Shown: one piece after another, positions 10,025 to 16,113 of the stretch
Layout: each line of letters opens with the position of its first letter
Numbering within the stretch: position 1 is the first letter of the stretch
Virus record (IMG/VR): IMGVR_UViG_3300020196_000149
Coordinates: 1-32,095 of that record
Source: a virus
Length of the DNA stretch: 32,095 bases
Direction: 5' to 3' (one strand)
Program-made: the position numbers and the translations under genes
Notes under the pieces: generated by a model
Databases searched by the model: none
The model's input: the letters and a program-made list of their open reading frames with translations, nothing else
Told to the model about the DNA's origin: nothing

Positions 10025-10744
10025 ATGCCTTTACCAAAAATTGCTACGCCAACTTATGAGTTGGAATTGCCTTCAACTGGAGAAACAGTAAAATATAGAC
10101 CTTTCCTTGTCAAAGAAGAAAAACTTCTTGTTATTGCATTGGAATCTGAGGATACAAAACAGATTACTACTGCAATTAAAACAGTTATTAAAAACTGTAT
10201 TGAGACAAAAGGAATTAAAGTAGAATCTCTACCAACTTTTGATATCGAGTATTTGTTTTTGAATATTCGTGGCAAGTCTGTTGGTGAAGATATTGAAGTA
10301 AATATTATCTGCCCAGATGATGGTGAAACATCCGTTCCTATCAAGATCAATGTAGATGATATTCAAGTCCAAAGAAATGATGAGCACACAAATAAAATTA
10401 AACTAGATGATAGTTTAATGATGCAAATGAAGTATCCATCTTTGGATCAATTTATTAAGAGTAACTTTGATTTCTCAAATGACAATGCAATGGAACAGTC
10501 ATTTGAACTTGTTGCATCTTGTGTCGATAAAATCTTTAACGAAGAAGAGGCTTGGTCTGCATCTGATGTGACCAAAAAAGAACTCATGGAGTTCTTGGAT
10601 CAAATGAACACAACACAATTCAAACAGATTGAGAAGTTCTTTGAAACTATGCCAAAACTTTCTCATACTGTAAAGGTTAAAAATCCAAAAACAGAAGTTG
10701 AAAGTGAAGTTGTTCTTGAAGGGTTATCAAGTTTTTTCGCATAG
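10025..10744 (+). CDS. gp26: gp26-like baseplate hub assembly protein
   Basis: A 239-residue acidic protein starting MPLPKIATPTYELELPSTGE, with KYRPFLVKEEKLLVIALESE and a FDIEYLFLNIRGKSVGE block. This is the T4 gp26 family, involved in hub assembly. The SD AGGAGA lies just upstream. The gene ends ...LSSFFA with the codons AGT TTT TTC GCA TAG. The last codons contain the canonical -1 slippery heptamer T TTT TTC, and the downstream ORF is in the -1 frame. A shift would give a fusion of about 301 residues. With the tape-measure-like gene following, gp26 occupies the position of a tail-assembly chaperone of the lambda G type. Confidence 0.88.
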   Translation: MPLPKIATPTYELELPSTGETVKYRPFLVKEEKLLVIALESEDTKQITTAIKTVIKNCIETKGIKVESLPTFDIEYLFLNIRGKSVGEDIEVNIICPDDGETSVPIKINVDDIQVQRNDEHTNKIKLDDSLMMQMKYPSLDQFIKSNFDFSNDNAMEQSFELVASCVDKIFNEEEAWSASDVTKKELMEFLDQMNTTQFKQIEKFFETMPKLSHTVKVKNPKTEVESEVVLEGLSSFFA

Positions 10745-10765
10745 GGATGGTCCATATGGACCTCC
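10718..10765 (+). promoter_or_regulatory. Candidate programmed -1 frameshift signal
   Basis: Three elements line up. GAAGGG (10718-10723), an SD-like stimulator, lies eight bases upstream of the slip site. T TTT TTC (10732-10738) is in register with the gp26 codons AGT TTT TTC. A hairpin GGTCC-ATAT-GGACC (10749-10762) can be extended by GGA/TCC (10745-10747 with 10763-10765) across one bulged T, leaving a six-base spacer. After a -1 shift the reading is CGC ATA GGG ATG GTC with no stop, continuing into the ORF that ends at 10929. Spacing is as seen in dnaX-type and tail-gene frameshift sites. Efficiency cannot be judged from sequence. Confidence 0.6.
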
Positions 10766-10929
10766 AAAACTACTTCCGTCTTAATTTTTCGTTGATGCAG
10801 TACCATAAATATTCATTGACGGAAATTGAAAATATGATACCTTGGGAAAGAGACGTATACGTTGAACTTCTCAAGCAACATATAGAAGAAGAAGAGTTCA
10901 AGCAGAATCAACAAACTAATGGCTGGTAA
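10747..10929 (+). CDS. Small ORF after gp26, probable frameshift extension
   Basis: A 60-codon ORF in the -1 frame relative to gp26. The product contains YFRLNFSLMQYHKYSLTEIE then NMIPWERDVYVELLKQHIEE, a short helical, acidic protein resembling the T-type part of tail-assembly chaperones and the small ORF found here in other cyanophages (position of T4 gp51). It can be read as a C-terminal extension of gp26 by frameshift at 10732-10738. It can also start independently at ATG 10756, which has AGGGATGG five bases upstream, or at ATG 10747, which has no spaced SD. It overlaps the next gene by 11 bases. No enzymatic motif is present. Confidence 0.65.
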   Translation: MVHMDLQNYFRLNFSLMQYHKYSLTEIENMIPWERDVYVELLKQHIEEEEFKQNQQTNGW

Positions 10930-13177
10930 TTTTAATTTACCCACAGAGAATATTGATGAGGTAATTTTAAGATTACTAGCCTTAGAGCCTAATGAAATTG
11001 AAGAACTTGATTATGAAACTTATAAAAGTAATCTAAGAGAACTTTTAGCAGAAATTACTACTGGATCAAGAAAGATTGATGGTAGTGAGGTAGAAGGAAT
11101 AAAAGCGGAGTTTAAAAGAGTTAGAGGGAAAAAAGGTAGATTTAAAATTAAAAAAACCAAGATCAGTGCTACTGGATTGGGTCTTGGTGGAATTAGAAAG
11201 CAAGTAAGAGGAACTCAAAAGAGACTAATGCTTGCTCCTTCCGGAGGTGTTGGGGCAGGGCAAAAAGATAAAATTGATGCGATCTCACAAGATAAAGTAG
11301 GAGAAGAAAATCCTCTGCTCACAATCAGCAAAACTCTTGATTCTATTTTAAACACTCTGATTGGAATAAACAAACAAAACCAAAAAGAGAATGAAAAAAG
11401 AAGAAGAGGTGATGAGCAGAAAAAAAGAGCGGAAAGAGAAACTGGTTTAGAATCAAAAACTTTCGATGGTCTTAAAAAAGCAGTTGCTGCTGTAACTAAA
11501 CCATTCCAATCGATCTTTGATAAGATCATGAACTTCATTTTCTTCACGCTACTTGGTAGAGTAGTAGTGAAGTTGTTTGATTGGTTTAGTAATAAAGAAA
11601 ACCAGAAGAAGATACAAAGTTTAATAAGATTTTTCAAGGATCATTGGCCAACAATTTTAGCATTATATTTAAGGTTTGGAACTGGTCTTGGTAGATTTGT
11701 CGGAGGATTATCCAGACTTTTAATCAAAGGTTCTTTAAAACTCATTCAAATTACTGCAAGTATTGCAGCAAAAATGGGTCTTAAAAAAGCAGGAAAACTA
11801 GCAAGTTTTCTTGGTGGTAGAGGAGGAAGACTGCTTGGTGCTGGATTAGCAGTTGGTGCAGATGTTGCTATAACAGCAGGAGCATCAGGTACTATTGAGG
11901 GTCTTGCAGGCGGTGATTTTAAAGTTCCTGGATTCTTTGGCGGTGGTTGGGCAGGAGGAATTAAAAATTTCTTCGGTAATATGTTTAGCGGTCTTGTAAA
12001 AGGACCAAAAGGAAGAGATAAAGTTCCTGCGATGTTAACGGACGGAGAGTTCGTGATGTCAAAAGGTGCCGTGCAAAAGTATGGTATTGATACTCTTGAA
12101 TCAATGAATGCTGCTGGGGGTGGAACTAATATTCCACAGATTACTGATGGAGTTACTTATGCTCAGGGAGGAGGGTATATTGGATCTCAGGAGGAAAAGA
12201 AAGAGAAAATTAAGGATCCCATTTTAGAAAAAAGAGAAAGACTTGCAAAGTCTCAACTACAAGCACAGAAAGCACTATCCTCTGGATCTGGACTATCGTT
12301 AAAGGGAGAAAGCACCGGTAGAGATCTTGGAACAGGTTATGGTGCAAAAAATCAAGGACGTGATGCAGTTGTAGTCAAAGGTGGTGCTGAGAAAATGGAT
12401 TTATCCATTACTTTAGGTGGCAAAAGATATTATGGAATGAGAAGAGGTAATGATGCGGTGTATGTTGCATTAGATCGTAGAGACAGAGCTGTCCCTAGTG
12501 GAGGATTATTTCAACCAGGAGGATTATTTGGTGGTCCAAGAATGTCAGCAAGAATGGATTATGCGGCATCAAAGAACAGATATTATTCATCATCAGATCA
12601 AAAAACATATAGAAATTATAATGATGCAGAAGCAGCAAGAAAATCAAGAATGACTTCTCTTGCATCTCAACAAAGACTTGATAAGTTAAGTTATGCTGGT
12701 GCTCGGGGAGGCAGCCGCACTCAATCAACATCAAGAGGAGTTAGATTTGATGCGGAAGATAAAGTAAGACGTGAAGATTTTGAGAAGAGAGGTGGACTCC
12801 TGGGTCAAATAGGAAGAAGTTTGACCTCAATGTTTGGATCTCAAAAAGATATTGATAAAAATAAAGCAGCAGACGCAGCAGCAACATTTAAAATGAAACA
12901 AGCAGGTGCTGCTTCCATTGGGAGATATTTTTCCTCTTCAGACGGGAAATATTATAAAGATTATAATGCAGCAAAACTTGCTCACGAACAAAGAAAAAAA
13001 TCAGGCGTAAAACCACTCCCCAAACCAAAACCAAAGTATAACCCTGCTGGTGGTGGTATGGGAGGTATGCGAGGTAGTGGATCCAGTTCATCAAAATCTC
13101 AAACAGCTCCAAGTCCTTCACCAAGGCATAAAGCTGGTACAAGACTTGCTCAAACTGCATCTGGAACTAAGAGATAA
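10919..13177 (+). CDS. Large tail protein, tape-measure-like (752 aa)
   Basis: Residues 1-180 are charged and partly coiled-coil. Residues 198-223 form a hydrophobic segment (FDKIMNFIFFTLLGRVVVKL). Residues 250-360 are Gly/Ala-rich and hydrophobic. Residues 368-400 (KVPAMLTDGEFVMSKGAVQK, then YGIDTLESMNAAGGG) are the element seen near the C-terminus of many tape-measure proteins. The C-terminal part is Ser/Lys/Gly-rich with an internal repeat (554-577 and 669-692) and a PKPKPK stretch. The protein probably sits in the tail lumen or hub and may enter the host envelope. It starts inside the preceding ORF and shares its hydrophobic segment with the next gene. The T4 equivalent (gp29) is not demonstrable. 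Confidence 0.7.
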   Translation: MAGNFNLPTENIDEVILRLLALEPNEIEELDYETYKSNLRELLAEITTGSRKIDGSEVEGIKAEFKRVRGKKGRFKIKKTKISATGLGLGGIRKQVRGTQKRLMLAPSGGVGAGQKDKIDAISQDKVGEENPLLTISKTLDSILNTLIGINKQNQKENEKRRRGDEQKKRAERETGLESKTFDGLKKAVAAVTKPFQSIFDKIMNFIFFTLLGRVVVKLFDWFSNKENQKKIQSLIRFFKDHWPTILALYLRFGTGLGRFVGGLSRLLIKGSLKLIQITASIAAKMGLKKAGKLASFLGGRGGRLLGAGLAVGADVAITAGASGTIEGLAGGDFKVPGFFGGGWAGGIKNFFGNMFSGLVKGPKGRDKVPAMLTDGEFVMSKGAVQKYGIDTLESMNAAGGGTNIPQITDGVTYAQGGGYIGSQEEKKEKIKDPILEKRERLAKSQLQAQKALSSGSGLSLKGESTGRDLGTGYGAKNQGRDAVVVKGGAEKMDLSITLGGKRYYGMRRGNDAVYVALDRRDRAVPSGGLFQPGGLFGGPRMSARMDYAASKNRYYSSSDQKTYRNYNDAEAARKSRMTSLASQQRLDKLSYAGARGGSRTQSTSRGVRFDAEDKVRREDFEKRGGLLGQIGRSLTSMFGSQKDIDKNKAADAAATFKMKQAGAASIGRYFSSSDGKYYKDYNAAKLAHEQRKKSGVKPLPKPKPKYNPAGGGMGGMRGSGSSSSKSQTAPSPSPRHKAGTRLAQTASGTKR
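12578..12994 (+). repeat. Internal repeat encoding RYxSSSDxKxYxxYNxA
   Basis: Residues 554-577 and 669-692 of the 752-residue tail protein match over 24 positions (RYYSSSDQKTYRNYNDAEAA against RYFSSSDGKYYKDYNAAKLA, both ending in Arg). The DNA copies are at 12578-12649 and 12923-12994. It looks like a duplicated short module in an otherwise low-complexity tail. Confidence 0.65.
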
Positions 13178-13179
13178 TA

Positions 13180-16113
13180 ATGGCAAACTTAGTTCCTTTC
13201 AATAAATCTAGTTCTTCTATTATTAAACGATCAAAACTTCTTTCAAGTTCTCTTGTAAAGAAAGATGATTCTGCAATTATTGCAAAATCAAACTCTGATG
13301 GGAAGATTCTATTTACAATCAAGAATAAAGTAATCAAAATTGATAAACTTTTAAAAAGTTCTTTGCTAACCACTAAAAAAGATACTGAGAAAAAAAGAAC
13401 TTTAACAGAACAAGAGAAGTTTAAGAATAGAGAAAAGGAATTAGAGAAACAAAAACCAAAAGCAATCCAAGGAATCAATATTCCAACCCCACCTAGATTG
13501 GGGGTATTTGACTGGATTAAAAACTTTGTTTTCAATACATTTTTAGGATTTATTGCAGTAAGATTATTTGATCATCTACCAAAACTAATAAAAATAGTTC
13601 CTATTATTTTCTCAGCTGGTGAATTCATCATTGATATGGGAGGAAAACTCCTAGATGGATTGGTAACTTTTGTTGATAAAGCATACGATGTTGTAGATAA
13701 AAGTCGTGAGTTTGTAAAAAATATTGGTGGCAATGGACTCGCACAAAATTTCGATAGGTTTAATGGAGCACTGAGCAAAATGTTGGATATTGCAGTTATT
13801 GCTGCAATATCTGCTGCCACAATGGGTGATGATTTTGGATCTCCTGGTGGTCCTGGTGCAACAGACTTTCTAAAAGTTGGTGGAAAACGTGGAGTCAATC
13901 CGCAAGTTGTAAGAAGATTTATACAAAGATATGGAATAGATGCCGCAAGACAAAAATTTGGTCAAGAAGGGATTAAATCATTAGGTGGAAAATTTGCTAG
14001 ATCAGGAGTTACAAATCTAGCAAGAAAAGGTGCTGTTGGTGTTCTTGGTAAAGGTGGAGTAAAAGCAGCAATAAAAATTATAAAACCACTAACAAAAGCA
14101 ATACCAGTTATTGGTGGACTGATTGAGTTTGGACTCGCTCTAATGGAAGGAGACAGTCCTGGTAGAGCTGGATTTAGAGCAGTTGGGTCAGTTTTATTTG
14201 GTGCCATTGGTGCCGCATTAGGTGGACCATTTGCCTTATTCACTGGTGGATTGGGAGCATATTTAGGTGGTGAAGCGGCTGGAAAACTATATGATTTTAT
14301 GTTTTCCGGTGGTAAAAAACCAACTCAAAAAACAGCAAAAGCAGCGGGTGGTGGAAAACCTGCAACTCGTGGTGGAAAATTAGTTAGTGGTCCTGCAAAA
14401 AGAACGGTAAAGAAAAAGAAAACTCCAAGAACAGTTAAAGCAACTGCACCAAGATTAAGACCGGGTGGTGCTGTTGGTGGTGAAAAGAATATTAAGAAAT
14501 TATTCCCTGATTCGAAAAACAAAAAAGAAATGAACTCTTTTGAGTTCCTGAAAAAGACATATGATATTTTCTCAAAATCTACTGGACTTGGATCATTAGT
14601 TGCTCTTGCAATGAAACCCGTACTGGGAGATAGACCAACCACAGCAGATTATAAAAATGCTGGTGTCGGCATCAACAACTGGATGAATAGATCAATCGCA
14701 TCAGGAACTCTTGCATATGCAGGTGGTGGCGAAGTTAAAATGGAGAGCATTGTCTCAGGTGAAGATTATAGTGATGTAATAGCAAGATCAGTTAAAGATT
14801 CTGTTTCATCTGAGGTTGATAAGGCTATTCAAGACTTGATGCGTCAGTTGATGCTACAACCATCTTCTCAACCTGCTGGTGTTCCTGGACCAACTAAACC
14901 TGGGGATCCAAGCACGGTTAATATACAAGGTGGTAGTGCTGATTTTTGGACTCTCGTTGCTATTGTATCAAGAGAGGATGCAGATCCTCAAGGGTCTGCT
15001 GACGTTGCACAGTCAATCTATAACAGACTTGCATCGGGAGCATATACAGGAAAAACAATTAAGGATTTGATTACTGCCGGTGGTCAGTATGAACCAACCT
15101 GGCAGTATCCTAAGGGAGCTCCTAACATTAAAAATAAACCGAATCCAGAGTGGTTTGCGATTAAGGACGCTGCAAGTGCTGCAGCTGCCTCTGGAATGTC
15201 AGAAGAAGCGATGAAATCGGTCGCAGCTTCAATTTTAAACCCAACCCTACAGGAAAATGCAAGACAATTTGTTCAGGGAAGAACTGATTTTAAAGGTGCT
15301 AATTCGGGTGGACCTCCAAGTATTCAGAGAAAAGGTGGAGATAATTGGTTTGGATGGGAATATAATTATAAACAAAATAAAATAGGTTCTGTCCCAAACT
15401 TTGGAGCAACAGCGACTGCTGGTGGAGCTGGTCCAGGAGGATCTTTCGTTGGTGGAGAAATTGCCTTAGGAAAGGGATATGGCAGCGAGGGAAGTAAAAT
15501 TGCAGGTGAACTTGGTAGATATATAAAAAGTAAATTAAAATCACCGCAAGATTTTTCACTAGTTCATCGTCATCCAGAGCACCCACCTTATAGTTTAACT
15601 TCTGGACATAGTTCTGGATCTTTACATTATCAAGGCAGGGCACTTGATATTGGTGCTTTTACTCATGAGCAAGGTCCAATTTTAAATGTAATATCTGAGT
15701 TTAATAGAATGAAAGGTGTAAAACCTGTGCAACTGTTACATGGAAAAAATGAACCAAATTATCATCATAATCATGTTCATGTCGCATATTTTAAAGGTGG
15801 CAGAGTTCGTAAATTAACAAGAGCTATTCTGGGAGAAAGGGGTCCAGAGTTTGTCTTTGATGCTGATACAACTGCTGGATTGGATAGACTCGCGCCACAA
15901 CTCTTAGACAAATTGAATATAGCAAAAACTGAAAAACAAGTTGAAAATATTCTTCAATCATACATGTCGTATAATGCACCTTATGGTGAAGAACCTGAGA
16001 TTGTTTATATAACAATCGAAGTTCCTGCTGCAGTTCCCGTTCCTATTAGTAGGGGAATGGGAATGTCTGGTGGCGGCGGCATAGATAATACATACGATAT
16101 CCTAACCCTATAA
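13180..16113 (+). CDS. Tail protein with two peptidoglycan-hydrolase-like domains (977 aa)
   Basis: Basic, Ser/Lys-rich N-terminus (1-100). A hydrophobic segment at 110-133 is shared with the preceding gene. Ala/Gly-rich hydrophobic stretches follow (200-370), then a basic linker (378-425). Residues 588-735 resemble SleB-type cell-wall hydrolases: a Glu at 599 (VSREDADPQG), QSIYNRLASG, GGQYEPTW and later FGWEYNY. Residues 755-872 resemble M15/DD-peptidases, with H816 and D823 in HYQGRALD (HxxGxAxD) and H865/H867 in HNHVHV. After that comes GERGPEFVFDADT, a tape-measure-type end motif. It probably combines a tail-lumen role with local digestion of the cell wall at infection. T4 instead carries a lysozyme in gp5. 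The hydrolase calls are by motif only. Confidence 0.75.
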   Translation: MANLVPFNKSSSSIIKRSKLLSSSLVKKDDSAIIAKSNSDGKILFTIKNKVIKIDKLLKSSLLTTKKDTEKKRTLTEQEKFKNREKELEKQKPKAIQGINIPTPPRLGVFDWIKNFVFNTFLGFIAVRLFDHLPKLIKIVPIIFSAGEFIIDMGGKLLDGLVTFVDKAYDVVDKSREFVKNIGGNGLAQNFDRFNGALSKMLDIAVIAAISAATMGDDFGSPGGPGATDFLKVGGKRGVNPQVVRRFIQRYGIDAARQKFGQEGIKSLGGKFARSGVTNLARKGAVGVLGKGGVKAAIKIIKPLTKAIPVIGGLIEFGLALMEGDSPGRAGFRAVGSVLFGAIGAALGGPFALFTGGLGAYLGGEAAGKLYDFMFSGGKKPTQKTAKAAGGGKPATRGGKLVSGPAKRTVKKKKTPRTVKATAPRLRPGGAVGGEKNIKKLFPDSKNKKEMNSFEFLKKTYDIFSKSTGLGSLVALAMKPVLGDRPTTADYKNAGVGINNWMNRSIASGTLAYAGGGEVKMESIVSGEDYSDVIARSVKDSVSSEVDKAIQDLMRQLMLQPSSQPAGVPGPTKPGDPSTVNIQGGSADFWTLVAIVSREDADPQGSADVAQSIYNRLASGAYTGKTIKDLITAGGQYEPTWQYPKGAPNIKNKPNPEWFAIKDAASAAAASGMSEEAMKSVAASILNPTLQENARQFVQGRTDFKGANSGGPPSIQRKGGDNWFGWEYNYKQNKIGSVPNFGATATAGGAGPGGSFVGGEIALGKGYGSEGSKIAGELGRYIKSKLKSPQDFSLVHRHPEHPPYSLTSGHSSGSLHYQGRALDIGAFTHEQGPILNVISEFNRMKGVKPVQLLHGKNEPNYHHNHVHVAYFKGGRVRKLTRAILGERGPEFVFDADTTAGLDRLAPQLLDKLNIAKTEKQVENILQSYMSYNAPYGEEPEIVYITIEVPAAVPVPISRGMGMSGGGGIDNTYDILTL

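Follow-up and report, generated by a model that had tools for sequence, protein, structure and literature searches.

A conserved slippery heptamer points to a programmed -1 frameshift between gp26 and a gp51-like frame

Results

The gp26 gene and the overlapping gp51-like frame

The window analysed here is a stretch of 32,095 nucleotides from a T4-like marine phage (IMG/VR record IMGVR_UViG_3300020196_000149), and all features described below lie on its plus strand. A gp26 homologue of 239 aa, putatively the short form of a tail assembly chaperone (TAC-N), is encoded at 10025..10744. It belongs to the T4 gp26 family, as it matches Pfam PF12322 (T4_baseplate) with an E value of 9.5e-77 and 258 bits, well above the curated cut-off of 24.5, and phrog_150 with an E value of 3e-82. 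The 3' end of the gene reads GAA GGG TTA TCA AGT TTT TTC GCA TAG, with the 0-frame stop codon TAG at 10742..10744. This end contains the heptamer T TTT TTC (10732..10738), which is in the correct phase for a -1 slip. An SD-like GAAGGG (10718..10723), a candidate 5' stimulator, is located eight bases upstream of the heptamer, and a hairpin of -12.5 kcal/mol (10745..10765), a candidate 3' stimulator specific to the lineage of the window, starts six bases downstream of it. The -1 frame contains no stop between 10720 and a TAA at 10927-10929, and a ribosome that slips on the heptamer would join 238 residues of gp26 to an extension of 63 aa (10738..10929), giving a fusion of 301 aa. In all these points, sequence reading and folding agree with the original prediction, which had described the in-frame heptamer, the SD-like sequence, the hairpin and the open -1 frame, and had put the fusion at about 301 residues.

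The segment encoded in the -1 frame (TAC-C, gp51-like) matches phrog_634, annotated as baseplate hub assembly catalyst, with an E value of 2.8e-28. In addition, it matches positions 239-280 of the phrog_150 profile of the gp26 family. This suggests that phrog_150 includes members that were recorded together with the extension.

The heptamer is conserved at the end of gp26

For a comparison of this junction, 351 loci were gathered in addition to the window (160 from a first search, 22 regions of named phages and 169 from a further search). Five T4- or Ackermannviridae-type loci were excluded from the junction count after they had been seen to be heptamer-free, and 347 sequences were scanned. 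After dropping 85 duplicates over the 300-base junction, six sequences without a gp26 stop, three with a short 3' sequence and one without a gp26 match, 252 distinct junctions were obtained; that of the window is identical to the junction of locus L081, which stands for both.

The heptamer was found at the last Phe-Phe of gp26 in 251 of the 252 distinct junctions, as T TTT TTC in 237 and as T TTT TTT in 14 of them. When the excluded phages YC, phiA8-29 and K355 are included, the count becomes 251 of 255. The only heptamer-free junction among the 252 is that of L265, an HTVC008M-like contig with a premature in-frame gp26 stop well before the usual end. As only 2 of the 265 Phe-Phe pairs at other places in these genes formed the heptamer, its presence at the junction is not due to chance. 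Among the 251 junctions there was none in which Phe-Phe was encoded by TTC TTT or TTC TTC next to an intact -1 frame.

The codons themselves were equally invariable. The first Phe codon of the heptamer was TTT in all 251 cases, compared to 70% of the 2745 Phe codons elsewhere in the gp26 genes. In ACP17, with a gp26 gene of 59% G+C, the slip codon is the one TTT among 14 Phe codons. The base 5' of this codon was T in 251 of 251 junctions, whichever residue the preceding codon encodes (Ser in 193, as AGT or TCT, and otherwise Asp, Asn, Ala, Thr, Gly or His). On a gp26 tree, a quick tree calculated with the last 12 residues removed, this preceding codon changed at least 48 times and the T was always kept, while control Phe columns switched between TTT and TTC at least 43 and at least 15 times, respectively.

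Virtual fusions could be derived from 250 junctions and formed 177 clusters at 90% identity, 101 at 80% and 31 at 60%. The heptamer and the open -1 frame are kept across the 31 clusters at 60% identity, which supports the frameshift that had been predicted from the window.

The -1 frame is conserved across the gp26 stop

In 250 of the 251 heptamer junctions, the -1 frame ran on for 45 codons or more without a stop, and all 45 of the -1 extensions that were scanned matched phrog_634. Across the gp26 stop, the codons are kept as residues of the -1 frame, with changes at the third base as in CTN for Leu or CAT/CAC for His. An Arg at 10738 was present in 204 of 221 junctions, a Met or Leu at 10747 in 219 (as ATG, CTN, TTA or TTG) and a His at 10753 in 209 (as CAT or CAC). 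The phase of the heptamer, its codon choice and the fact that the -1 frame is kept as protein on both sides of the gp26 stop all point to a -1 frameshift. From these sequence comparisons we consider it highly probable that a programmed -1 ribosomal frameshift joins gp26 to the gp51-like frame.

The one exception is S-SCSM1 (L164:3215-3240), which is the only one of the 251 junctions where extra bases right after the gp26 stop close the -1 frame. Since this frame contains a stop, a simple -1 shift cannot reach the gp51 of this phage; the closed frame may be a real loss or a sequence error. Stops between the two frames had been named beforehand as evidence against frameshifting, and such a stop is thus present in one homologue, whereas 250 of 251 junctions are open.

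Alternatively, gp51 could be a separate small protein that is made by re-initiation past the gp26 stop, at the ATG at 10747 or the ATG at 10756 (10747..10758), with the heptamer as a by-product of Phe-Phe. An ATG is found at 10747 in 115 of 221 junctions and at 10756 in 141 of 221, 16 of the 20 named records examined outside the T4 type list a gp51-like gene of its own, and in R10Z, V07 and Mendera an ATG overlaps the gp26 stop. However, with an ATG in these 141 of 221 junctions, 10756 lacks the general conservation as a start that the original prediction had named as a result against frameshifting. Moreover, neither ATG, GTG nor TTG is present in the first 14 shifted codons of 55 of 250 junctions, and this start-codon-free state has a minimum of 22 changes along the tree. 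The residues 5' of both ATGs, Arg at 10738 and His at 10753, are kept in the -1 frame as described above, and neither the invariant TTT nor the invariant T preceding it is explained by re-initiation. As a replacement for frameshifting we regard re-initiation as very unlikely, but it could also operate alongside it.

The annotated starts of gp51 vary among the public records. In HTVC008M, Melnitz, S-B64, S-RIM2 and Syn1 (L162, L174, L179, L181 and L182), gp51 is annotated to begin within the conserved domain, 51-54 bases past the gp26 stop. No gp51 is annotated in AS-zj, ACP17 and LPCS28 (L168, L169 and L173), yet the -1 frame is open there.

Sequence elements flanking the heptamer

Upstream of the slippery site, 225 junctions have a Glu codon in the SD-like element, and the Glu-Gly pair is encoded by GAG-GGN in 166 and by GAA-GGG in 39 of them. 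GGG was used after GAA in 39 of 59 cases and after GAG in 15 of 166 (naive p 5e-17); elsewhere in gp26, it represents 70 of 1499 Gly codons. A tree-aware test of the link between GAA and GGG gave the same direction and was borderline (12 supported independent pairs, median p 0.0625). This linked choice of GAA-GGG or GAG-GGN suggests an SD contact.

Slippage could also take place during transcription, with RNA polymerase slipping on the T run and producing a mixed mRNA. The 14 sites with T TTT TTT and the run of eight T in HTVC008M would be suitable for this. On the other hand, 237 of the 251 sites have six T followed by C and the X XXY YYZ phase is always kept, although Phe-Phe itself partly fixes this phase, and the codon choice in the SD-like element suggests contact with the ribosome within the borderline outcome of the tree-aware test. 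Taken together, polymerase slippage instead of ribosome slippage appears extremely unlikely to us.

The hairpin of the window is built from GGA, one bulged T, GGTCC-ATAT-GGACC and TCC, with z values of -1.99, -2.64 and -2.52 on 52, 30 and 24 bases, respectively. Of 222 junctions with the same spacing, 83 had all five core pairs, and each of them belongs to the lineage that has His-Met at 10753-10758 (83 of its 138 junctions, compared to 0 of 83 others). A universal hairpin at the junction was rejected, as the core pairs are confined to this His-Met lineage. The alignment of the junctions thus confirmed only one half of the original expectation that heptamer and hairpin are both conserved: the heptamer is kept in 251 of 252 junctions, whereas the hairpin is lineage-specific. 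The 45 bases 3' of the heptamer folded better than shuffled sequences, with a mean z of -1.34 over 250 junctions compared to -0.29 to -0.57 for four control stretches, and the stems differ among the examples displayed. Within the His-Met subset, the pair 10750-10761 was present in 105 of 138 junctions compared to at most 103 in 2000 shuffles, and the pair 10752-10759 in 112 of 138 compared to at most 104, with relatedness uncontrolled in both cases; the other two of the four hairpin pairs tested did not exceed all 2000 shuffles. A second, longer stem is found at 10781-10829 in the gp51-like frame, and the region 10739-10830 of the window folds better than all 200 shuffles (z -3.15).

Comparison with T4-type phages

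In T4, genes 26 and 51 are separate and lie on opposite strands, and T4 gp26 matches the model of the N domain with 77.2 bits. When the profile of the virtual fusions was compared to T4 gp51, it matched residues 15-246 and therefore nearly the whole protein (42.6 bits, E 1.3e-12). The gp51 of Klebsiella phage P545 was matched at residues 64-251 with 43.1 bits, and the best of 600 shuffled sequences reached 6.6 bits. The composition of the T4 gp51 family, a gp26-related N domain together with the C domain, is found in the window only in the form of the frameshift product. As the virtual fusion spans residues 15-246, T4 gp51 is likely the equivalent of the gp26-gp51 frameshift product. This match agrees with the work of Vladimirov, Gautam and Davidson (2022), in which frameshifting is reported to be apparently maintained in several groups of T4-like phages, with T4 itself using 26 and 51 as two separate genes.

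The heptamer was absent from all 11 T4-type gp26 genes, a control that is small (6 loci in the T4-type scan and 2 in the KVP40-type scan) and partly redundant, T4, L353 and L355 being near copies and P545 and MY02 having the same gp26 end. Of the 11, the eight examined for it (all but the contigs L353, L355 and L357) have a full-length gp51 annotated beside gp26. A search with T4 gp51 gave a query coverage of at least 80% in 1334 phage records, and Synechococcus was not among the ten commonest first words of their organism names, besides which 26 further words exist. Eight of the 11 T4-type genes also have Phe-Phe near the end of gp26 (TTC TTT, TTC TTC or G-TTT-TTT), as expected if gp26 needs these residues and the T run is without a role, but none of the eight uses the heptamer codons and other Phe-Phe pairs hardly ever form the heptamer, so that chance or an amino-acid constraint has a negligible probability.

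The three excluded phages YC, phiA8-29 and K355 (L171, L172 and L175), which are distant and Ackermannviridae-like or unclassified, have no canonical heptamer, and their -1 frame is open. The C-domain model gave no match to the -1 ORF of phiA8-29, which scored 6.6 bits, less than the best shuffle (8.1). Homologues without the heptamer, which had been put forward as a finding against frameshifting, are therefore a divided result: 251 of 252 junctions keep it, whereas the 11 T4-type genes and these three distant phages are without it.

The predicted fold of gp26

The predicted model of the window gp26 has a mean pLDDT of 88.3. In structural alignments, residues 1-96 matched 3fgx with a Z of 8.0, 2ob9 (the HK97 tail assembly chaperone) with 7.9 and 3klu (YqbN) with 7.2, where a Z under about 8 may reflect only a common arrangement; the next row had a Z of 4.9. 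We take 3fgx and 3klu to be phage chaperone-like proteins. A Foldseek search of the model against the PDB gave no significant match (best E 0.68), with HK97 chaperone chains at ranks 2 and 4. No useful relative came out when gp26 was compared by sequence with solved structures. Among the 50 matches listed for predicted viral structures, the named ones near the top were mostly baseplate hub proteins of the gp26 type, which is of little further help. According to the model, the first domain of gp26 would moderately resemble tail assembly chaperones.

Discussion

From the data presented above we infer the occurrence of the shift, its frequency and its function in tail assembly as follows. Most ribosomes would reach the gp26 stop and produce the 239-residue chaperone TAC-N. 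A minority would slip back by one base on T TTT TTC, probably aided by the SD-like sequence on the 5' side and, in the lineage of the window, by the hairpin on the 3' side. The slipped ribosomes would continue in the -1 frame and produce the 301-residue gp26-gp51 fusion (TAC-NC). By analogy with gpG and gpGT of lambda, binding of the tape measure protein would fall to the gp26 part, and recruitment of tail tube subunits to the short C-terminal part.

The slippery heptamer of lambda is G GGA AAG. In phage P2, which has a contractile tail, the E/E+E' frameshift takes place on a run of T located 5' of the tape measure gene. P2 resembles the window in its contractile tail and its T run and possibly in the position 5' of a tape measure gene, a likeness of general description. 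The lambda G/GT frameshift belongs to a -1 shift that is described in PMC5009743 as widely conserved in long-tailed phages except T4. The same source places it near the 3' end of the chaperone gene, where it leads to a minor long form as proposed here, but the heptamer of the window is T TTT TTC and not that of lambda, so that this likeness is one of layout. A conserved -1 frameshift is also reported, in PMC12846349, for the tail chaperones of the Vandenendeviridae and Andersonviridae, where TAC-N ends in a GTTTTT motif. These are families other than that of the window, and they are likened to it by description.

The original prediction knew of no such report for the T4 gp26/gp51 region. This no longer holds, as Vladimirov, Gautam and Davidson (2022) have already published on genes 26 and 51 as tail chaperone genes of T4-like phages, at least as far as that work is cited elsewhere: it is cited in PMC12846349 for poly-T slippery sequences in TAC-N genes of T4-like phages, and in PMC10885494 for T4-like phages with a short gene and a fused long gene. 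Our literature searches, with subscription journals mostly outside them, found no title or abstract opening that describes a gp26/gp51 frameshift in cyanophages. The mechanism is thus known in kind. The window adds one more member, for which conservation has here been tested broadly.

The gp51 of cyanophages was described in PMC3037559 as having a length of only some 20% of that of other gp51 proteins, and a short gp51 was also noted there for marine vibriophages; the word "frameshift" is absent from the main text of that paper. If the fusion is the counterpart of T4 gp51, the truncated-looking gp51 of cyanophages would be the C-terminal part of a frameshift product. Frameshifting would explain its shortness, as the missing part would be gp26, joined by the shift. 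Several public records carry a gp51 with a late start or none at all. If confirmed, an abundant family of marine phages would gain a testable translational control of tail assembly, and gene 51 of T4 would represent a separate-gene solution to the same need.

A review lists gp26 and gp51 as hub assembly chaperones and describes gp51 as required for assembly and absent from the particle. The same review states that genetic studies support gp26 as a part of the hub. The requirement for gp51 together with its absence from the particle fits a chaperone, whereas gp26 in the hub does not, since a pure chaperone gp26 would not be part of the T4 hub. This passage and the heptamer-free loci that were left out of the junction count are points against frameshifting and slightly lower our confidence in it.

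Tentatively, and with the balance of probability somewhat against it, frameshifting may be the older route to the long chaperone across the T4 superfamily. The heptamer and the SD-like element would then have been frozen, and the stem would have been swapped by lineage. The route would have been given up on more than one occasion, in T4-type phages for a separate full-length gene 51 and in S-SCSM1 for some other route, if the sequence of the latter is right.

Downstream of the junction, the start of the next ORF (10919..13177, 752 aa) overlaps the end of the -1 ORF. It matches phrog_35029, a family of unknown function, with an E value of 6.9e-66, and tail tape measure families only weakly (best E 3.2e-4), so it is possibly tape-measure-like. 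The following ORF (13180..16113, 977 aa) has a cell-wall-hydrolase-like region that matches PF07486 with an E value of 5.6e-5 and 24.1 bits, under the Pfam cut-off of 27. In HTVC008M and phiM12, an annotated tape measure or tape-measure-like gene is located one small gene further on. The two ORFs of the window adjoin each other (10919-16113), and either of them is a candidate for the tape measure gene.
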